DNA of 23,658 bases, from positions 1 to 23,658 of IMG/VR virus record IMGVR_UViG_3300035070_002719; one strand, given 5' to 3'. The position numbers and the translations under genes were made by a program. The notes under the pieces are model-generated. The model did no database searches, was not told the origin of the DNA, and saw only the letters and a program-made list of their open reading frames with translations. Below, in pieces: positions 45 through 10,540 of this stretch; the stretch's first letter is position 1, and each line of letters starts with the position of its first letter. This DNA comes from a virus.

Positions 45-3000
45 TTAGTCTTTCCTTTTTATTTCCCCTCTATCAAATTCTCTTACAACAAATTCTCCAT
101 TTACGTTCTTCATTGTTGTACCTCTTTTTTTCTTCTTAGGAGCCTTCCCTTTTTGGCTATCCATCATACCTAAGTCCCATTCACTATAACCTAAAGCCAA
201 AGCAAATGCTTGCCAAGTTTTAGTTTCCTCTTCAGTCATAGTTTTAAGGTTGTTAAGCTTTTTAAATAACCTATCTAAAGGTATGTTTCCACCTGCAGAT
301 ATAATTTGAGATATCGCTAAGTAAGCAGGATTATCTAAACTGTAACCTTCCATTTGCTCTCTTGTATTCTTATATGTAAAAGCTCTTGCTGCAGACATTC
401 CTTTACGTATTTTAGAGTTTAAAGGAGGAGATAAAGATAAAGTTTTTAAGGCAGCTTTTTCGTAATTAGGTCTATCAGCTTCTGACTGTTCTACAATTTC
501 AACGAGAATGTTTTTAGCTGTGGATACAATTGCTCCAGTTAAACCTATACCTCTTAAAATACTGTCTGCTAAAGAATTGATAATACTACCTTCTTTTTTC
601 TCTCTAAGCTCTTTTGCTTCATCGTCTTCATCATCATTAAACAACATAAACATTAATCCGTTTTGCAAAGAAGCAAATATAATATTTTGCACCGCTGCAT
701 AGTACGCTAACTTAGCTACGTTTGCTTTAGTGTCACCTCTTCCGTTTATTAAGTCAAGAATAGCTTTTTTACTTAGACGAGCCATTTGCATAGGCGTGTT
801 AGCAAAAGCCAATATAAGACGCCCCAATGGGCTTGCTTGTTGGTTTGAAACCCTATCAGGTCTAGAAGACTGTTGCGTTTCTTCTGCAATTTCTTGAAAG
901 TCCAAGAACGCTTGCTTTTTCGCTGCAGCTTCTGCCATGCCTAGGGACATGTACTTTTTTACATTGTTTCTATAGTAAGAAGCGCCTCCTGCTGCAATAG
1001 CAAAACTATCAGACATTGTTGTTGGTAAAAACCCTATTTTAACCATTTGCTGATAAGCAGCTCTCATTTTATTAGTAGCGCCGTCTGTTGCTTGTATAAT
1101 TATGTTTGCGTTAACATCAGTTTTTAGACCTGTTCTTCTTTGCTTTAAAAAGTCAGAGTTAAATATCATAGAAAAATCAGCCCAGTATTGTTTTTGATTA
1201 GCAAAAGCTTTTGCAGCTGCTACGGGATTGTTTTCTTCAAAGTTCAAAAAGTTAATAATAGATAACTGCTGCAGTAATGCGGATCTAGTATTAAAAAACA
1301 TAATAGTAGCTACAGAATCGTTAACCCAGTTAAGTAATCTATTAGCATATTTATTCTCACCAGTAGGTCTTGATCTTCCAAATTCCATACGGTAAAGCAT
1401 GTCAGATAACTGTTCTCTATAGTTTGAACCAAATTCAGCTTCCAGCTTGTTCATATTTTCATTAGAAAATACTACATCTTTATTCTCTTTCCACTTTGTC
1501 AAAAACTCCGCTCTACTAGATGTGTTAACCATGTTAACTACGTCTGTTGTTATATTACCTCCTAGCCAGTTTTTTCCCGGTTCAGGGTATCCATTAATAG
1601 ACCCTAACAACTGAGTAGCAAAAGTAGATAGTTCTGAATTATTGTCTACATAGCTTACTAGCTCTGAAATATCTTGCTTACTTAATCCAGGTATTTCTGT
1701 ACCTATTTTATTCCAAATCCAAACCCTAACAGCATCTTCGTTTTTAAATCCGCTTTTACCTTTTTTACTTAAATCAGCTGGGCTCTTTTTAATTTTTCTT
1801 CTTAAGTCTTTAAGCTTATTAGCTGTTACTTGCTGATATCTTTCAAAGTTATTAATACCATCCGCATAAGGATCTAGTAAATTTTGTTTTAGCCAGGCTT
1901 TTTGCTGCTCTCCTTTTTTACTTTTTCCTATCAATGTATACATCAAACCTACGAAGTCTTCCGCTCCTGGAGGTATAAGCCACTTAAACTTACCTTTTTT
2001 AGCTCCTAATACTTGAGCTCTAGCATCTGAAAATGTTTTAGCCGCTTTTACGCCTGTTTTTGTTTCTATAATCTCATTAAACTCTTGACTTAAATCAATA
2101 GAAGGCTGAATTGTAGAAGATTCTAAAGCTGTTGCAAACTTTTTTAATCCTTTTTCAGTATTAATATCTATATCGGATTTTTTAAATTTACGCACGTTAA
2201 CCATTTTAGATACAGCTTGAAGTGTTATATATCTACGTTTCCCCGATTTTGTTGTTGTTGATGTAAATTTCATGTTCAAATCTATTTTAAAATCTGCATC
2301 AAGAGCTCTAATACCTGGGATTTCATGTATGTTTTTACCAATATAATACAATCCTTTTCCTCCAATGTATATATAATAAACACCTTTAGCGTTATAATGG
2401 TTTATCACTTTTTGAAGACCATCATCACCGGCTTTAGTTACTTCTTGAAACTTTTTGAAAGCGGCAGATTTTTTAACCTTTGCTTCAGTGGCTAGCGAAA
2501 TAGAGCCGCCTAAAGGGAAACCTGTGAAATTTTGATTTTCTTCTTTGTTTATTAAGGCAATTATTTCATTTAAAGCTTCTTTTCCTTCTTCAGCTAAGTT
2601 TACTATATTTTGTCCTCCAACTATAGAATCTGTTTTGATAAACTTATTCCCTTTTCTAAGTACTATTTTACCGTCAAGTAAACCTAAAGTTAAAGAACCA
2701 TATCTAGTAAACGCATCTAGTTTTATTTCTAGCAAAACTTTAAATTCATTTTTCTTGCCGCCGTGTACGAGCAATTGAATATCCGGTAAAGCTTTATCAT
2801 AAGCTGCTGTACTTTCTCCTATAGCCTCTATGTCTATACCAAATTTCTTTGCGAAGTCGTTAATATTTTTAAAAACAATTTCTTCAAAAACAATACCTCC
2901 AAAAGTTGTACCTTTTATTATTCCTTTTTCTATTAAATAATTTACAAAATCTTTTACTTTAGGGGACAAATTGTTAAACTCAGCGCTATTTACGAAGTCT

Positions 3001-6000
3001 TCGTCTCTATTTACTTTTTTAGTCGTATTAAGAATAGTTTTTTCTTCTGATTTATCAAAGCTAAATTGTATTTGATCAAAGCTTTTATCTTCGTTTTTAT
3101 ATCTGTCAAGCTGAGACTCAATTTCATTTAACTGAGCTTCAACTATTACTTCACTAATAACATCTATAGAATCACTAGGTGCTAACTCTCTAATAGCTTT
3201 TATGTCTGTTAAGTTATCAACAGTAGCATAACTAGCAATAGTTTCTTTAATAACTGGCGTGATAATTTCTCTAGCTAATTGTTTTTGTCTTTCTAGTATA
3301 GTGGTTTTTTTGCCATCTAAAAAGTATTGCAAAAATGTTTTCTTATCAATCGGTTCTATTTTGAAAATAGGATTACCTTCTGCTGTTATTTCTCTACCAA
3401 TTTGCTCTATATTAAATAGCTTACTGTAGCTTTTCTTTATAGTTTGGACAGGCAGAGCTTTCATTATGATATCAAAATTCTTTTTATCATTCAAAAAGTC
3501 TATGTAAGCACCTGGTATTTTTGTTTGACCATTTTTTTCACCAATAGCTCCCCATCTTTTCAAAACAGTTTTAAACAATTTCTTATTTAAAAACTCTTCT
3601 ATCCAGGGTACTAAAGCAGTTTTTCTTCCGCGCTTTACACTTGTTTTTTCAGATAAAGTTCCTTTCCTTGCTCTTAACTTAACCTCTCTTTCTAATTCTT
3701 TAGAAATATCTTCGACTAAAGCATCGTCAACTAGGTCAAGCTGGTCAAATGTAGCTTGCCCTCTTTCAACGCTTTCGCCTTCTATTTGAGGTGTTTTAGT
3801 TTCTTCTACAGCTACTCCTTTAGCTGTGTCTATGTCTGTCGTAAATTCTTTGTTGACGTCTTTAAACATCAAAGACTGCCTAGTCTGTATACCGTACTTT
3901 TTAACGTACCCAGCCAAGTCTTTGTTTTTTCTAGGATCAAATGTTCTAAGCGCTTTAGGTATTTCAGCTCTCAATACAGCCAAAGCATCTTCTTTGTTAA
4001 ATGCTTCGTCAGTTGTCTGTCTAAACTTTTGTTCAACTATTGTATTTATATAGCCTTCAAATAAAGGAACTAGCTTGCTTTCCAAGTTGCCAGGTAAAGG
4101 ATTTTTTGCGTTGTAGTTCGTTCTTCCTTGTCCTTCCGTTCCTTTTTCGTAAATTTCCATAATCTGTTTAGATTTTGGATCGTTAGGTCCTAGTTCTGTT
4201 GTCCTAACAGGCTTAGCTTCTCTTTTTACTTTAGGCTTAGGTTTAAGCTTAGGTTCAGTTTTAGCGGTTACTATAACTTCCGGCGCATCTAAAATAGCAT
4301 CTACTTGAGCGTCATATTGCTCTTGGCTTATTTCTTCGTTTATTAAAGACTGGTCTAAAGCTTCTAATTTTTCGTTAGCTGCTTCGCTTAAAGAAAATTC
4401 TTTTGCGACTTTGGTTTCAGCTTTAGCTTTTGATAAGTCTCCAACAGAGTCTATAATAGCTCCGGAAAGTTTACCTTCTTTAATTGACTTACTGTATTCG
4501 CGCATGAAGTTGTATACGTCTTTACCTGTTTCGAATTTTATTTTTTTAAAGCCTAAAGCTCTAAATACAGGTAATAAAGCATCGCCAATTTTAGTAAATA
4601 AGTTTTCGTTATACTTAACTTCATTTTTTGCAATAGCGTCCGAAAAAGAAGTAAGGTATTCAGTGTTATATACTTCGGTGCCTCGAGCAGTATATCCTCT
4701 ATCACCCATGATAGTTTCCATTTTTTCAAGAGTAGCACTATCTAGTTTCTTTTTAAAATCAGAAACAATTTTACCCTGCTGTTCTGGGTCACCAATCATT
4801 GCGTTTAGGATAGGGTGTAGTACTTCGTGTGCTCCTACATTAATTTGGTTAGTTTTAGCAGCAACTTCTTTGTTTATATAAAGAGTTCCCCCTAAAGCAA
4901 ATCCGCCTATTCTATTAAATTTAGCCTTATCTTCTGGCTCAAGTTTTACTTTATCTGCTTTTAGCTGTTCTTCAAGCCCTTTTGAACTGTCAAAAGATTT
5001 GGTTTTTAATCCAAGCTTAGCTCCCTCTTCTTTAGCAAATCTTTCTGTAGCTGCAATATTTTTTTGTTCAATTGCTACATTAATTTTTCTTTTAGTTTCC
5101 TCTATTGCGGCTGTTTTTTCTTTAGCTACATTAGACTTTCTGCCAGGCTTTCTATACTTAGCGGTTATATTGTCAATGCCTTCGTTAAGTTCTTTTACTC
5201 TAGTTTGAGCGCTTCTTGTATCATTACCTTTTAAAGCTTTTCTTTCTTTTTCTAATTCAAATAACTCTGCTCTATCGGCTTCTTCTGTTACCTTAGAATC
5301 AATATTTGCTTCAAGGACAGCGTCTTCTCTTTTTTGGTTTATTTCTTTTGAAAGCTTTTCGTCTTTTTCTACTTTAATATCCATACCTGCTAAATCTTCA
5401 GCGGTAGCAGTTTCAAGAACTTCTTTTACTTTGTTTTGGCTTACGTTTTCTCCATTTATGCTATACTTGCTAACCTTCATTAAACCAGGTGCTTGTGTAA
5501 TTGCAGCTACAGGTGCTCCACCGATTCCAGCAATACCTTCAACGATTATTTCTTTAGCGTCCATTTCTTTACCTTCGATAGCTAAACCAGCTGCTTCACC
5601 TGCTGCTCCACCAATCATTTCTCCTACTCCTAGCGTGGTTTTCCCTGCTACATTAGCAGCAACCTTTCTAGCTGTGGACGTTGCTCCTTTTCTAACAACT
5701 CCAGACACTGCTCCCGCAGCCCCTCCAGATAAAGCAGTAGCAATACCTTCAATAGCACCAATAGTCATACCTCTAGCAAGGGAAGTGTTTCTTATTTCAG
5801 AAAACTTTTCTTCATCTGACAAAAGTGTTTTAACATTTTCAGCATTGAAAGCCATATCTTCATCCGCAAGCTTTTCTTGTATTCTACTAGCAAATGTAAT
5901 TAAAGATTCACTCAAGGCGTTTGCGCCACCCATATACCCAGCAATACCAGCAGGCAAAGCTCCGGCTCCTCCGGTAGCAGCTCCTACTACACCAGCGGCA

Positions 6001-6629
6001 GTAGCTCCTGTAGCTAAACCAGCAGCAGCAGCTTCTTTACTAAAAAGCCCAGCTAAAGACTGAACCATTACTCCTGTAAAACCAGCAATCCCTTCGTCTT
6101 TAATAGCTAAAAGAGTTGACATAGCGGCGTTTTCACCTTTGCTTTTGTATTTGTCATAAGACTTAGACCAGTCTTCGAATTCTTTTATACCATCCGCAGA
6201 TTGATACTTGTTCACGGCATTGACAAAATCTTCATATTGGAAGTCTTTACCTTGGCCCCCATTGTACATAATAGAAGCAATTTCATCATAAGCATCTTCT
6301 CTAAGACTACCAGATTTCCACCCTTGTGCTATAGCCCCGAAAAAACCAGAGCCATCTTCTTCTTCTTCAGTTTCAACACCTTCAATTTCATTTTCTTCTA
6401 ATACCAAAGAAGTATCTTCCAAACTGGACTCCCCACTCTCTATTTCCTTCCCCGCATTTACAGAACTTTCTACGGTGTCCAGGTCGTTTCCCGGTTCGTC
6501 TTCTTCTATTGTTAAACCTTTTTCTAAAGCTTTGTTTATGTAATCTTCAAATGAAACTCCATTTTCATCTGCTGCTGATTGAATTTCGTCGTTATCGTAT
6601 TCAACTCCGTTAAAAAAATACTTTGGCAT
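45..6629 (-). CDS. Giant polyvalent virion/ejection protein (T7 gp16 position)
   Basis: 2194 residues. Visible parts in order: a small N-terminal unit (1-45), a Glu-rich linker (76-92), Gly/Ala-rich hydrophobic stretches (about 175-385), a charged helical, probably coiled-coil stretch (about 400-560), a metallopeptidase-like domain with HEVLH at 601-605 and candidate third ligand E657, a Lys/Pro linker (about 791-809), a sigma-70 region-2-like stretch (about 846-925), a PD-(D/E)XK-like segment (E1249/E1250, D1283, E1301, K1303), and a long helical C-terminus (about 1740-2150) with a hydrophobic segment at 1974-1997. Phage polyvalent proteins with mixed enzymatic domains are an established class. 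By position, after three smaller genes in T7 13-14-15 order, it is inferred to be packaged in the head and ejected with the DNA. No lytic transglycosylase or RNA polymerase motif was found. The start has an A/T leader without a Shine-Dalgarno sequence, 10 nt after the preceding stop codon. The gene call is secure; individual domain calls are less so. Confidence 0.88.
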   Translation of the reverse strand: MPKYFFNGVEYDNDEIQSAADENGVSFEDYINKALEKGLTIEEDEPGNDLDTVESSVNAGKEIESGESSLEDTSLVLEENEIEGVETEEEEDGSGFFGAIAQGWKSGSLREDAYDEIASIMYNGGQGKDFQYEDFVNAVNKYQSADGIKEFEDWSKSYDKYKSKGENAAMSTLLAIKDEGIAGFTGVMVQSLAGLFSKEAAAAGLATGATAAGVVGAATGGAGALPAGIAGYMGGANALSESLITFASRIQEKLADEDMAFNAENVKTLLSDEEKFSEIRNTSLARGMTIGAIEGIATALSGGAAGAVSGVVRKGATSTARKVAANVAGKTTLGVGEMIGGAAGEAAGLAIEGKEMDAKEIIVEGIAGIGGAPVAAITQAPGLMKVSKYSINGENVSQNKVKEVLETATAEDLAGMDIKVEKDEKLSKEINQKREDAVLEANIDSKVTEEADRAELFELEKERKALKGNDTRSAQTRVKELNEGIDNITAKYRKPGRKSNVAKEKTAAIEETKRKINVAIEQKNIAATERFAKEEGAKLGLKTKSFDSSKGLEEQLKADKVKLEPEDKAKFNRIGGFALGGTLYINKEVAAKTNQINVGAHEVLHPILNAMIGDPEQQGKIVSDFKKKLDSATLEKMETIMGDRGYTARGTEVYNTEYLTSFSDAIAKNEVKYNENLFTKIGDALLPVFRALGFKKIKFETGKDVYNFMREYSKSIKEGKLSGAIIDSVGDLSKAKAETKVAKEFSLSEAANEKLEALDQSLINEEISQEQYDAQVDAILDAPEVIVTAKTEPKLKPKPKVKREAKPVRTTELGPNDPKSKQIMEIYEKGTEGQGRTNYNAKNPLPGNLESKLVPLFEGYINTIVEQKFRQTTDEAFNKEDALAVLRAEIPKALRTFDPRKNKDLAGYVKKYGIQTRQSLMFKDVNKEFTTDIDTAKGVAVEETKTPQIEGESVERGQATFDQLDLVDDALVEDISKELEREVKLRARKGTLSEKTSVKRGRKTALVPWIEEFLNKKLFKTVLKRWGAIGEKNGQTKIPGAYIDFLNDKKNFDIIMKALPVQTIKKSYSKLFNIEQIGREITAEGNPIFKIEPIDKKTFLQYFLDGKKTTILERQKQLAREIITPVIKETIASYATVDNLTDIKAIRELAPSDSIDVISEVIVEAQLNEIESQLDRYKNEDKSFDQIQFSFDKSEEKTILNTTKKVNRDEDFVNSAEFNNLSPKVKDFVNYLIEKGIIKGTTFGGIVFEEIVFKNINDFAKKFGIDIEAIGESTAAYDKALPDIQLLVHGGKKNEFKVLLEIKLDAFTRYGSLTLGLLDGKIVLRKGNKFIKTDSIVGGQNIVNLAEEGKEALNEIIALINKEENQNFTGFPLGGSISLATEAKVKKSAAFKKFQEVTKAGDDGLQKVINHYNAKGVYYIYIGGKGLYYIGKNIHEIPGIRALDADFKIDLNMKFTSTTTKSGKRRYITLQAVSKMVNVRKFKKSDIDINTEKGLKKFATALESSTIQPSIDLSQEFNEIIETKTGVKAAKTFSDARAQVLGAKKGKFKWLIPPGAEDFVGLMYTLIGKSKKGEQQKAWLKQNLLDPYADGINNFERYQQVTANKLKDLRRKIKKSPADLSKKGKSGFKNEDAVRVWIWNKIGTEIPGLSKQDISELVSYVDNNSELSTFATQLLGSINGYPEPGKNWLGGNITTDVVNMVNTSSRAEFLTKWKENKDVVFSNENMNKLEAEFGSNYREQLSDMLYRMEFGRSRPTGENKYANRLLNWVNDSVATIMFFNTRSALLQQLSIINFLNFEENNPVAAAKAFANQKQYWADFSMIFNSDFLKQRRTGLKTDVNANIIIQATDGATNKMRAAYQQMVKIGFLPTTMSDSFAIAAGGASYYRNNVKKYMSLGMAEAAAKKQAFLDFQEIAEETQQSSRPDRVSNQQASPLGRLILAFANTPMQMARLSKKAILDLINGRGDTKANVAKLAYYAAVQNIIFASLQNGLMFMLFNDDEDDEAKELREKKEGSIINSLADSILRGIGLTGAIVSTAKNILVEIVEQSEADRPNYEKAALKTLSLSPPLNSKIRKGMSAARAFTYKNTREQMEGYSLDNPAYLAISQIISAGGNIPLDRLFKKLNNLKTMTEEETKTWQAFALALGYSEWDLGMMDSQKGKAPKKKKRGTTMKNVNGEFVVREFDRGEIKRKD

Positions 6630-6639
6630 AATTTAATTT

Positions 6640-7974
6640 TTATATTTTAGGTAAAGATTGTTTAGGCTCTACTTGCTGCATGTCACCTGTAAATTGTCCT
6701 GCTACTTGCGCCATAACTACAGAAGGAGAGTCATTGGCTTCGATTCTAATACTCCATCCTTTTCCGTACTTAGGATTTGTTATTGTATAAGAATTTAAAA
6801 TTCTTTTTCCGTCTACTTCAATATCTGCTGGTTTTACCGTAAAACCATAAGACTTGAAAACTTGCTTAGCATTTTTCATGTTTATTTTACCTGAACCCAT
6901 AGCTTTATTAAGCCTTTTGTTCATGTCATCACCGTTTTCACTCCACCACGAGTTTAGCTTTGCTTGAGCTTTTTCAGTAGGGGTTTTAGTAGGTGCTGCT
7001 TTTATAGTGTCTGATATTAATTTACTTTGAGGTATAACGTTTTTTATAGTATCTTCTACAAGCCATTTTTTTACAGCCATTACTTGCTCTGGGTTATTGT
7101 TATCAAAAATAGTGTTTTGACCCATTCTATCTACCCATGTTTGGTTCGCTATATTGTAACTAGTTCTTTTTCCAACCCAGTCAAAACTTCCGTTGTTCAT
7201 CAATTCTTGCGTAGCTTTTTCTACATTTATTTTTTCTTCAGCTACAACCCTTGAACTTCCGTCTTTTAATGGCACTTTAGTACTAATAGTTTCTTTCCAT
7301 ACAGCTATGTTTGGGTCTAATATGGTTTTGCTAGCCGTTTCTTGAAAATCTTTTACGGGTTCTATAGTTTTTAAAAGCTCTTCACCCGAATCTATAGTGG
7401 CTGTAGCGTTGTTTAAGTCTAATTTATAGTCTGATCCTTCTAAAGATAAAAAAGTAGAGTTTTCTTCTTTAGAAATTCTTAACTTAGGGTCTCCATTGTT
7501 ATATGCGCGAATAAGATTTTGTAAAGGTGCTCCTGTAGACTTGCTTATGTATCCAACTTCGCCGGGGTTTTTAGACATAGAGTCTTTAAGTTTTTTTGAT
7601 AAAAATTCTACGGTTACCATGTTTTTGCCGTATTTTTCTACATTTCCTTTTATTTCGGTTTGCCTTAGCAGGTTAATATCTCTTTCTGCTCCGGATAAAG
7701 TAGGCAAAGCTTTTGTTAAAGACCTTAGCTCTTCAGACTCTGTTCTCATCATCTCTGCGAAAGAAGATTTTAAAGCAGGGTTAGTAGAGCCAGGAAGTTT
7801 ACCTATGTTATTACCTAAAGCAATAACCATTTCGTCTTCTCTTTTTTGTATTTTTTCTTGCTCTATCCTGTCTTCTTCGATTTCGGCTTTCATATTATCA
7901 AAGCCTTTATCGAGTCCTTCTGCGAAAGGGTTAGCTGTGGAATCTAAAAATTGTTTTGGATTTCTATATGACAT
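6640..7974 (-). CDS. Structural/internal virion protein, T7 gp15 position
   Basis: 444 residues, with no family recognised from sequence alone. The first 90 or so residues are strongly charged and helical (Glu/Lys/Arg-rich around 28-48), consistent with a coiled coil. The rest is a mixed alpha/beta soluble protein with no signal peptide, membrane segment or catalytic motif that I can see. It lies between the 246-residue coiled-coil protein and the 2194-residue giant protein, the place held in T7 by gp15, which forms the middle of the ejection channel. It is shorter than T7 gp15 (about 750 residues), so equivalence is inferred from order only. The gene stops 10 nt before the next start, which suggests co-translation with its neighbour. 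The ATG is preceded by A/T-rich sequence without a Shine-Dalgarno motif. Confidence 0.8.
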   Translation of the reverse strand: MSYRNPKQFLDSTANPFAEGLDKGFDNMKAEIEEDRIEQEKIQKREDEMVIALGNNIGKLPGSTNPALKSSFAEMMRTESEELRSLTKALPTLSGAERDINLLRQTEIKGNVEKYGKNMVTVEFLSKKLKDSMSKNPGEVGYISKSTGAPLQNLIRAYNNGDPKLRISKEENSTFLSLEGSDYKLDLNNATATIDSGEELLKTIEPVKDFQETASKTILDPNIAVWKETISTKVPLKDGSSRVVAEEKINVEKATQELMNNGSFDWVGKRTSYNIANQTWVDRMGQNTIFDNNNPEQVMAVKKWLVEDTIKNVIPQSKLISDTIKAAPTKTPTEKAQAKLNSWWSENGDDMNKRLNKAMGSGKINMKNAKQVFKSYGFTVKPADIEVDGKRILNSYTITNPKYGKGWSIRIEANDSPSVVMAQVAGQFTGDMQQVEPKQSLPKI

Positions 7975-7998: not shown

Positions 7999-8739
7999 TT
8001 ATTGTTTGTACCAGTCTTTACCACCGCTCTTAATAGCGCCAGCAATTGGACCAACAGCATCAATTGCACCAGTAACTAATCCTGAAACTGCCGCGTCCTT
8101 AGCATTTTGGGCGGCTTGTAAGTTTGCGCCCGCTCCATCTACTTTTGCTTGCGCTCTATCTAATGCTACTAATTCTCTGGATTCCTGTTCTTGGAAAACG
8201 TAGTCTTTGCCCATTGCTTCAGCTTGCTGCATTCTTTTTGCTTCGGCCATATCAATGCCTTGCAACCTTAGTTGCTCTTCCACTTTAAGATCGTTAACTC
8301 GTTGATCGCCTTGAGCTTTTAGTTTTTGGTTTTGTGCTTCTTGCGATTCAAGAGATGCAGATATACCTTTTTTACTTCTCAAAGCGGCTTGCGCCAACGC
8401 AGTAGCACCTCCGGCACTCGCACCAGTGGCTCTTAGAGTGTCTAAAGTGTTTGCTAAAGCAAGATCAGCCTCTTCGGCTTGAAACTCCGCTGCTTGTGTA
8501 GCTACACCTAATTGGGCATAAGCGTTTTTAGCCATTCCTGACACGTCCTCTGCTAATCCAGAAACGTTTTCATAACCTTCGTAAGGGTTTATAATTTTTT
8601 GCCTATTAGCTTCTAGCTCGGCGAGCTGTGATTCTGCTGTGCTAAGCCTACCTTTAGCTTTTTGCCTTTTTTGGTTTGCTCCGATAGCTCCAATGCCTTT
8701 TGCTACCAAGCCTCCAATAGCTGCTGTTACTAATCCCAT
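7999..8739 (-). CDS. Coiled-coil internal virion protein, T7 gp14-like position
   Basis: 246 residues. It opens with a Gly/Ala/Ile-rich hydrophobic stretch (about 3-21, including AAIGGLVAKGIGAIGA) and ends with a second one (about 218-238). Between them is a long Ala/Gln/Glu-rich helical region typical of coiled coils. Hydrophobic ends around a helical middle, small size and position directly after a gp13-like gene fit T7 gp14, the internal virion protein that inserts in the outer membrane during DNA ejection. That function is inferred, since no diagnostic motif exists. The start lies only 3 nt after the stop of the upstream GNAT-like gene, so the two are probably translationally coupled. Other possibilities are a different minor virion protein or a tail-tip component. 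Confidence 0.82.
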   Translation of the reverse strand: MGLVTAAIGGLVAKGIGAIGANQKRQKAKGRLSTAESQLAELEANRQKIINPYEGYENVSGLAEDVSGMAKNAYAQLGVATQAAEFQAEEADLALANTLDTLRATGASAGGATALAQAALRSKKGISASLESQEAQNQKLKAQGDQRVNDLKVEEQLRLQGIDMAEAKRMQQAEAMGKDYVFQEQESRELVALDRAQAKVDGAGANLQAAQNAKDAAVSGLVTGAIDAVGPIAGAIKSGGKDWYKQ

Positions 8740-8742
8740 TTG

Positions 8743-9150
8743 TTATAGTTTTTTAGTTATTTCGTGAGAAGGGCTCGGATCTACCTTATAGCCCATTCTT
8801 TTATGCGTATTTGTTAATTGCTTATTTCTACCTATCGTAAATATGTATTTGCTTCCTTGATCTTTACAAACTTTTTCAGCTGTGCTTATTAAAAGCTCAA
8901 TAGCTTCTTGCCTATTACTTTTTCTGTATTCAGGGTTAGATACTATCCACTCTAATAAAACAGCTTTAGAATTTGTAAAATATATAAAACCAGCAACAAC
9001 CGGAATATCATTGCTATACACAATTATACCTCCAGTTCCGTTATCTGGTAAAAAATCTTTAGGAGGATGTTGCCATCCTTTCCAATTAGACCACCAAGAA
9101 ACTAATGTATCCCAATCAGTTTCTTGTAGCTTTCTAGTACTTAATTCCAT
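8743..9150 (-). CDS. GNAT-fold protein, T7 gp13-like
   Basis: 135 residues with the look of a GNAT acyltransferase: a strand with the pattern VLLEWIVSNPEYR (64-76), a following helix (EAIELLISTAEKV, 82-94), then KYIFTIGRN and a final TNTHKRMGYKV motif (113-123) that resembles the closing strand-helix-strand of GNATs. The acetyl-CoA pyrophosphate loop, normally R/Q-x-x-G-x-G/A, is poor here (R76-K-S-N-R-Q), so enzymatic activity is doubtful. T7 gp13 is of very similar size and, as I recall, has been grouped in the GNAT fold clan; it also sits just before genes 14-15-16. I therefore infer a virion-assembly role rather than free acetyltransferase activity. An active modifying enzyme remains possible. 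Confidence 0.72.
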   Translation of the reverse strand: MELSTRKLQETDWDTLVSWWSNWKGWQHPPKDFLPDNGTGGIIVYSNDIPVVAGFIYFTNSKAVLLEWIVSNPEYRKSNRQEAIELLISTAEKVCKDQGSKYIFTIGRNKQLTNTHKRMGYKVDPSPSHEITKKL

Positions 9151-9160
9151 TTAATTTAAT

Positions 9161-10540
9161 TTAATACGCGGACTCTACATAATTAGAGGATACCGCAAAT
9201 AATTCTTTTGTGCTACCTAAGTTAGTTGTATCATCTGTTTTCATTTCAACCGTAGCAAAATAACCTTTTATACCAGTCATAGCGCTCCCGAATACAACTT
9301 CATTTGCTTGAGCAATAGTGTTATTCTTTATAATCGCGTGGTATTTATTTTCTTTCCGAGTAAAACCAGCATTGTATAAAGGCTGAACAACGGCAGCAGC
9401 TCCAGTGTTAGGTGTAGGCGTTGCTGAGTCATAAGTACCCTCTAATCTACTATGAATAGAAGAGCCTATGTCGCTAAAGCTATTTATAGAAGTTACTTTC
9501 CATCCATCACTACCTTCGTAATTTATTGTTTGAAAGTTTTTGGACACAGACGCTTTAGGATTAAACACAAACTTAACGCTAGAGTCAAAAGCTACGTTGT
9601 AAAATGTATTTTTACCCGTAGATGTGGGGTCGTTAAAGTTATGCACGTACAAGCTGTTGCTATTTGTAGTATAAAACATGTTCTTTAAGTTAAAAGCAAA
9701 ACTTGGCTTGTAAGAATAAAGACTAGTCCATCCGTTAACAGAATCGTCAAAAGACAACGTTTTATAAGCTATGCTATTATTAGCAGATTGTAAAGATACA
9801 ACATAGTTTTTGTTATGAACATCAAATCCTCCGATAGCTTTACCTTTAGCGGTTGTGCTATCTAAGTTAATAAGGTTATCCCTAAAAAAGTCTTTCATTC
9901 CATATGCAGAAATTTCTGTAATACCGTCTCTAGAAAGTCTTAAGACTGCGTTTCTGTTTTTGTCTGTAAAATACTTTCTATAACCGTATACAGCAAAACT
10001 TTCAGGGTTTGTACTTATGCCGTAGTTCCCAGCATAAGAAACCACTTGTCCTATAACCATTGCACCTGAAGTTGTTATAGCCGTTCCTTCAGCTGAGTAA
10101 ATAGCATCTTTGTCTATCAATGCTTTACTAACTTTGTTTTCTTGGAATATTATAAGGTTTGTATCTTCTGCGTATAGTTTTTGAATAGTACCGTTAGAAG
10201 GGTCTAAGCTTCGTGTTATATCTTCGCCTACTGGAAACTGATTCGTATTGTTTATATCTGTTCTACTATTATATATTCCTGAATAAATTAACCCATTGCC
10301 CAATAAAGAACCTCGGTTTGTTTCTTCAACTATATAAGCTTTTGCTCCAAAGTCTACACTTACATTGTTATACCCTCCTCTGATTCTAGACTCTTCAACG
10401 TACCAGTTTCTATCAGGGTTAGCTTGGGCATTTGTCGCGTATTTCCACACAGGTCTAGCTTCGTTAACCGTCCCCGGTTCATCTACTACTTTGCTTAGTA
10501 TAAAAGAATTAAAATATTTTACTTCTACTATTGCTGCCAT
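9161..10540 (-). CDS. Tail nozzle/hub-type protein (459 aa)
   Basis: 459 residues, beta-rich, with no signal peptide or membrane segment. Blade-like repeats of short strands are visible, for example LIIFQENKVSKALIDKDAIY (about 128-147) and AVLRLSRDGITEISAYGMKD (about 197-216), a pattern that fits a beta-propeller or nozzle wall. The short-tail nozzle in T7 is gp12 and in P22 gp10. Here the propeller-like character is shared between this protein and the 1043-residue protein two genes upstream, so the nozzle may be built from two polypeptides. It lies 10 nt upstream of the GNAT-like gene, at the boundary between tail and internal-virion genes. Assignment as a tail protein is fairly safe; the exact part is inferred. 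Confidence 0.78.
   Translation of the reverse strand: MAAIVEVKYFNSFILSKVVDEPGTVNEARPVWKYATNAQANPDRNWYVEESRIRGGYNNVSVDFGAKAYIVEETNRGSLLGNGLIYSGIYNSRTDINNTNQFPVGEDITRSLDPSNGTIQKLYAEDTNLIIFQENKVSKALIDKDAIYSAEGTAITTSGAMVIGQVVSYAGNYGISTNPESFAVYGYRKYFTDKNRNAVLRLSRDGITEISAYGMKDFFRDNLINLDSTTAKGKAIGGFDVHNKNYVVSLQSANNSIAYKTLSFDDSVNGWTSLYSYKPSFAFNLKNMFYTTNSNSLYVHNFNDPTSTGKNTFYNVAFDSSVKFVFNPKASVSKNFQTINYEGSDGWKVTSINSFSDIGSSIHSRLEGTYDSATPTPNTGAAAVVQPLYNAGFTRKENKYHAIIKNNTIAQANEVVFGSAMTGIKGYFATVEMKTDDTTNLGSTKELFAVSSNYVESAY

Follow-up and report, generated by a model that had tools for sequence, protein, structure and literature searches.

A giant polyvalent protein with zincin-like, sigma-70 region-2-like and PD-(D/E)XK nuclease-like domains in a podovirus-like phage related to phages of Flavobacteriia

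The window described here is a 23,658-base fragment, the IMG/VR virus record IMGVR_UViG_3300035070_002719. At positions 45 to 6629 of its minus strand, a giant open reading frame (ORF) runs from an ATG start without an internal stop and encodes 2,194 residues. In 100 shuffles of the window the longest open frame was 198 residues, compared to 2,194 in the real sequence, and 94 homologous giant ORFs were collected from relatives; the frame is real and conserved, and an artefact is ruled out. This confirms the frame named in the original prediction, which did not give its strand. All long genes of the window share one strand, and all coordinates of window features given below refer to the minus strand. 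The gene order is the end of the terminase gene, portal, a scaffold-sized protein, the major capsid protein, four head-tail or tail proteins, a 276-residue protein, a muzzle-like protein, a GNAT-like protein, a 246-residue protein, a 444-residue protein and then the giant, which is the last gene of the virion module in a podovirus-like phage.

The window comes from a marine phage related to Pervagoviridae, Pachyviridae and Elemovirus, phages of Flavobacteriia. Searches with the portal and capsid proteins matched phages of Flavobacteriia and, besides these, only a single uncultured phage from spring water. The portal is 54% identical to that of MW202828; identities in the portal and capsid searches continue with 46% for Maribacter phage Panino, 42% for the Flavobacterium elemo phages, 34% for Cellulophaga phage phi38:1 and 28 to 29% for phi46:3 and Tenacibaculum phage Gundel_1. 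In these phages the same series of virion genes is again followed by a very large protein; in phi46:3 this protein is divided into two parts, and in Gundel_1 the series directly precedes the terminase gene. Since a tblastn search with the whole window protein found no match in the phage collection, we turned to portal and capsid synteny and to hidden Markov models (HMMs) to reach the cultured relatives. The deposited names of two giants in the homologous slot look wrong, namely, “reticulocyte binding/rhoptry protein” in MW202828 (L004, 741 to 12320) and “tRNA methyltransferase” in Panino (L005, 8229 to 13718).

Scans for relatives of the giant found 11 through its C terminus and 6 through its sigma-like region, and a deeper profile of the C terminus reached at least 488 IMG/VR loci. 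Domain HMM counts below were taken over 101 giants and architecture counts over 81 near-complete relatives. In a Pfam scan of the window protein and about 50 relatives, the window protein had no domain at the cutoff. Where present, the recognizable parts occur in a fixed order among the 81 near-complete giants: zincin, sigma2-like domain, nuclease or HAD domain, and helical C terminus. The zincin is found in 66 of the 81, with HExxH and a following Glu in 10 more; the sigma2-like domain is found in 48, a HAD motif in 36 by strict motif count, and the PD-(D/E)XK cassette in 9 by a strict profile and about 15 by a more sensitive one. The best-conserved part is the C-terminal module (residues 1502 to 2158; positions 156 to 2126), which is matched by gp074 of Gundel_1 with an E value of 4e-51. 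The long helical C terminus that had been predicted is borne out by the AlphaFold2 (AF2) model, in which this end of the protein is almost all helix.

The zincin-like metallopeptidase domain (residues 520 to 733; positions 4431 to 5072) was detected by HMM in 70 of the 101 giants. The predicted HEVLH motif is present at residues 601 to 605 (positions 4815 to 4829), with E657 as the candidate third ligand. H601, E602, H605 and E657 are invariant in an eight-row alignment, and HExxH with the downstream Glu is kept across 64 distinct sequences of relatives. In the AF2 model of residues 530 to 1240 (pLDDT of 79), HExxH lies within the helix of residues 598 to 612, followed by three strands and then by E657 in the helix of residues 652 to 667. 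This order, an HExxH helix, a three-stranded sheet and a Glu in a later helix, is that of the zincin class and agrees with the topology given for the metallopeptidases of polyvalent proteins (PMC5512222). Pfam Peptidase_M78 gave weak matches in four family members, and no zincin is among the 50 listed PDB Foldseek matches of the model. The assignment is strong, and the domain is a putative protease on the basis of motif and model. A stretch after it (approximately positions 4440 to 4560, residues ~690 to 730) matches the beta-prime subunit of the non-virion RNA polymerase (RNAP) of phage AR9; with only 39 residues and an E value of 0.0056, the match is possibly due to chance and was not taken as homology.

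A zincin within a giant chain raises the possibility that the chain is a polyprotein precursor, cleaved by its own zincin during assembly into separate virion proteins, and that it never enters the host as one chain. Among polyvalent proteins no domain is commoner than the zincin, and DdrB of phage P1 is believed to undergo processing ahead of packaging (PMC5512222); the AF2 model also has long low-confidence linkers between domains, as such a precursor might. We consider this reading unlikely, given that gp50 of phage N4 carries a zincin of the same kind and enters the virion unprocessed (PMC5512222). The HELVH region of gp50 aligns with the zincin of the window family at 7.8%, compared to at most 0.3% for shuffles.

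The PD-(D/E)XK core occupies residues 1217 to 1360 (positions 2550 to 2981) and is followed by the C-terminal half of the nuclease cassette, residues 1361 to 1495 (positions 2145 to 2549), which contains the motif AKGVYYIYIGGKGLYY. The signature that had been predicted reads PD at residues 1282 and 1283, then E1301-x-K1303, and together with E1249 the residues D1283, E1301 and K1303 are the sole invariant columns among 15 sequences, of which the others are 17 to 42% identical to the window. Profile searches of PDB sequences gave only three matches (E values of 0.2 to 1), all of them Hjc-type resolvases whose E, PD and ExK line up exactly with these residues, and single members match Pfam PDDEXK_9 (0.003) and TnsA (0.015). 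The AF2 model places the first E in a helix, the D at the opening of the following strand and ExK in the next strand, so that the conserved E, (P)D and (D/E)xK sit on the alpha-beta-beta-beta core of the class. Foldseek with the model of the PD-(D/E)XK part plus the C terminus gave no significant match, the restriction-endonuclease-like 3ijm being weak (probability 0.23). The assignment is strong and predicts a nuclease, for which DNA cleavage would be the expected activity.

The two-part cassette also occurs as a stand-alone hypothetical protein in the T4-like cyanophages P-SSM2 and P-TIM40 (L115, 1486 to 2163; L116, 1399 to 2178), and the nuclease cassette is therefore a mobile module. In L002, L016, L017 and about 30 other giants, a HAD phosphatase-like domain (FDFDDTL ... 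LTAR ... DD) replaces the cassette; it sits immediately before the C-terminal module, and nuclease and HAD never occur together in one giant among the 81. An earlier HAD count by iterated HMM was discarded because it was contaminated by the C-terminal flank and marked the window protein itself.

The prominence of the C-terminal module, present in every relative found through it, and the lack of a detectable zincin in the giants of several cultured relatives (phi38:1 and Panino) would fit a mainly structural ejection or channel protein in which the enzyme-like domains are inert leftovers or DNA-binding decoration. This seems to us improbable: full zinc-binding and PD-(D/E)XK catalytic sets that are invariant in very divergent sequences are unexpected for inert remnants, and the swapping of nuclease for HAD without coexistence is what functional cargo would predict. 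The motifs, each invariant or nearly so in divergent relatives, are on this comparative evidence not chance matches.

Between the zincin and the nuclease lies a sigma-70 region-2-like domain (residues 832 to 960; positions 3750 to 4136), with a core at residues 853 to 925. This segment of 130 residues forms a true conserved domain, and its three homologous subgroups match each other at 93 to 99% by HHalign. The subgroup whose motif is EIxxGxxGxxDLIxxYxPxxxxPLAAYIN aligns with regions 2.1 to 2.3 of Escherichia coli sigma factors at 67% (E value of 5e-5), compared to at most 9.8% for 200 column shuffles and at most 0.5% for other windows of the giants, except four that fall at the sigma-like region. 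Sigma factors account for about half of the best 50 matches that Foldseek lists from the PDB, RpoS region 2 (TMt of 0.68, probability of 0.90) being one example, and they recur among the matches of the viral structure search. Foldseek reports no aligned residues, and its sigma-rich list has no single significant match (E values of >0.1).

Several results count against a sigma-like identity. No PDB Foldseek match of either AF2 model reaches an E value of 1e-3. The window's own subgroup alone matches E. coli sigma factors at 1.9%, the link being made via the homologous subgroups. Region 4, with its helix-turn-helix, had no Pfam match in the window protein, and the promoter-melting aromatics of region 2.3 are absent, with GYVKKY in the window and AYINKF in group C at the place of YATWW in RpoD; because of these two absences, the domain is not classed as a sigma factor. 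It may instead be a convergent three-helix bundle that makes no contact with RNAP and binds DNA or another cargo protein. The sigma-like profile found no match in PDB sequences, Pfam likewise found no sigma match, and the domain is only weakly linked to the phages' own sigma factor (34% for group C and <2% for groups A and B). We nonetheless think convergence rather doubtful, since the HHalign register fits regions 2.1 to 2.3 and exceeds all nulls, and since sigma factors turn up independently in both structure searches, that of the PDB and that of viral models. We therefore retain a sigma region-2-like identity with moderate confidence, on alignment and models, so that the stretch originally described as sigma-70 region-2-like keeps that name without being a whole sigma factor. 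Profile searches and structure predictions, of the kind proposed as a check, recovered zincin and PD-(D/E)XK topologies and a sigma2-like domain of moderate standing. Should the domain bind polymerase, blocking or recruiting the enzyme is more plausible than DNA melting.

Two further regions of the protein are conserved. The N-terminal one (residues 95 to 390; positions 5460 to 6347) has an HMM match in 22 of the 101 giants, and PHROG 32588 matches residues 93 to 494 with an E value of 7e-31. It contains the Gly/Ala-rich segments described earlier as membrane-active looking: Gly and Ala make up 37% of residues 170 to 390, but no 19-residue stretch there reaches a Kyte-Doolittle value of 1.6, and so these are not classical transmembrane helices. 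The region after the sigma2-like domain (residues 960 to 1191; positions 3057 to 3752) is very strongly conserved in 22 of the 101 giants and is mixed alpha/beta, without a recognizable fold.

The phages seem to rely on the host polymerase together with a sigma factor of their own. A search of 20 related records with two RNAP Pfam models found no RNAP; one of these models, PF00940, also matched no control genome, and the result is compatible with divergent polymerases of the crassvirus type. The window protein itself has no Pfam RNAP match, and no T7-like RNAP module of the N4 type was found in it. Of 18 large related contigs, 15 encode a sigma-70 factor of about 250 residues, and the relative closest in architecture, L028, is one of the 15. 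Across 194 columns this factor aligns at 99% with sigma factors of E. coli (E value of 2.5e-19). This complete sigma factor (L119 to L133, with L130 from the L028 genome) lies outside the virion module and has a conserved insert, ATSQQASGV. This apparent use of the host polymerase with a phage sigma factor makes an earlier, virion-borne polymerase-binding module plausible.

For presence in the virion, the slot is well grounded. GenBank notes cite experimental tandem mass spectrometry (MS/MS) proteomics for gp098, gp099, gp100 and gp101 of phi40:1 and for gp120, gp121 and gp123 of phi18:3. The 246-residue protein of the window (positions 7999 to 8739) is homologous by iterative HMM to gp099 of phi40:1 (E value of 1.3e-24) and to gp072 of Gundel_1 (E value of 1.7e-25), and the GNAT-like protein (positions 8743 to 9150) is homologous to gp098 of phi40:1; a packaged acetyltransferase-like protein is possible. 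The 444-residue protein (positions 6640 to 7974) had no phmmer match and corresponds by position alone to gp100 of phi40:1, gp121 of phi18:3 and gp073 of Gundel_1. The muzzle-like tail protein (positions 9161 to 10540) matches Pfam crAss_MUZ_C with an E value of 5.8e-9.

The step from the slot to the window giant itself is longer, which tells against placing its domains in the particle. The N-terminal region of Gundel_1 gp074 matches gp101 of phi38:1 and phi40:1, gp123 of phi18:3 and the elemo giants, and its C terminus matches the window, so that the window giant connects to the MS/MS-annotated giants via this protein. Moreover, gp101 of phi38:1, 99.9% identical to gp101 of phi40:1, has no detectable zincin, sigma2-like or PD-(D/E)XK domain; phi18:3 gp123 was outside the scan. 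The packaging that had been suggested is thus annotated for counterparts in two cultured relatives and, from slot and neighbors, is probable for the window giant. Ejection we infer because of the slot, the muzzle, the crassvirus cargo (PMC10172136) and N4 gp50 (PMC5512222), and the original idea of delivery with the virion seems reasonable. The gp101 of phi38:1 (L009, 19423 to 24498) is annotated by similarity to “phi18:1_gp101,” for which the intended source is probably phi40:1; phi18:1 has been reported with 67 encoded proteins (PMC11946311).

The giant was put forward as a candidate for an undescribed system, yet it falls within a class that has been described before, the polyvalent proteins (Iyer 2017, PMC5512222). 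Like these, it is a giant chain of unrelated enzymatic and binding domains (zincin, sigma2-like and PD-(D/E)XK) with a zincin-like metallopeptidase as hub, in a virion gene context where portal, capsid, tail and muzzle genes share its strand, and a “large polyvalent protein” is the top match to it in BFVD (E value of 2.3e-4), although it matches none of the Pfam large-polyvalent-protein domains. It differs in having the sigma2-like domain and the alternation of PD-(D/E)XK and HAD. The word “sigma” is absent from the main text of the paper defining the class (PMC5512222), and within polyvalent proteins the sigma2-like domain looks new. What appears novel is this domain together with the fixed layout of zincin, sigma2-like, nuclease or HAD, and C-terminal parts across a very large environmental family.

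The giant had also been assigned to the slot of T7 gp16. This holds for position, as the last of three consecutive internal-protein-sized genes, but no sequence similarity to T7 gp15 or gp16 was found, including from the C-terminal module, and Pfam finds no transglycosylase domain in the window giant. Closer slot analogues are N4 gp50 and the crassvirus cargo. The N4 virion RNAP gp50 is likewise a giant encoded last in the virion module, after portal, capsid, tail genes and two smaller virion proteins, and shares the zincin; unlike it, the window giant has no detected polymerase domain, and the C-terminal module is unrelated to gp50 by HHalign. The crassvirus cargo proteins (phi-crAss001 gp45 to gp50, PMC10172136) are also very large virion proteins after a muzzle gene, which is homologous, in a phage of the Bacteroidota type, but they are RNAP-associated, and no such domain was found in the window giant. 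The giants of phi40:1, phi38:1, phi18:3 and Gundel_1 occupy the same slot; gp074 of Gundel_1 has the C-terminal module in common with the window giant and contains an HEFGH motif of its own, whereas no sigma2-like or PD-(D/E)XK domain was detected in it.

Taken together, we consider it probable that the giant is a polyvalent protein which flavophage-related podoviruses package as virion cargo and deliver, with zincin, RNAP-binding and nuclease roles. It would be made late and enter the particle by means of its conserved helical C-terminal module; the muzzle-bearing tail would then pass it into the host together with the DNA or before it. The zincin might trim the polypeptide, either inside the head or once it has entered the host, or might cut a host protein. 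The sigma2-like domain would occupy the site of sigma region 2 on the host polymerase, blocking or redirecting host transcription until the later-made phage sigma factor takes over, and the PD-(D/E)XK cassette may cut or bind DNA, either that of the host or that of competing elements, with the HAD phosphatase-like domain in its place in many relatives. The packaging signal, ejection, targets and timing are the inferred parts of this proposal. More tentatively, and with less than even confidence, we suggest that a widespread group of marine phages carries a virion-borne, RNAP-binding sigma2-like domain, fused to a protease and a nuclease, that seizes or silences host RNAP before phage transcription and ahead of the separate complete sigma factor.

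Domain-level names are now available for a family in which Pfam finds none. With at least 488 loci in IMG/VR the family is abundant, and it has cultured relatives, which makes virion content and polymerase binding directly testable; the point worth laboratory effort is whether the sigma2-like domain engages host RNAP. If the proposal holds, a transcription-factor-like module would be delivered with the particle, and this would be a third virion-borne route to the control of early transcription, beside a carried polymerase, as in N4 and crassviruses, and chemical modification of the host polymerase, as by T4 Alt.

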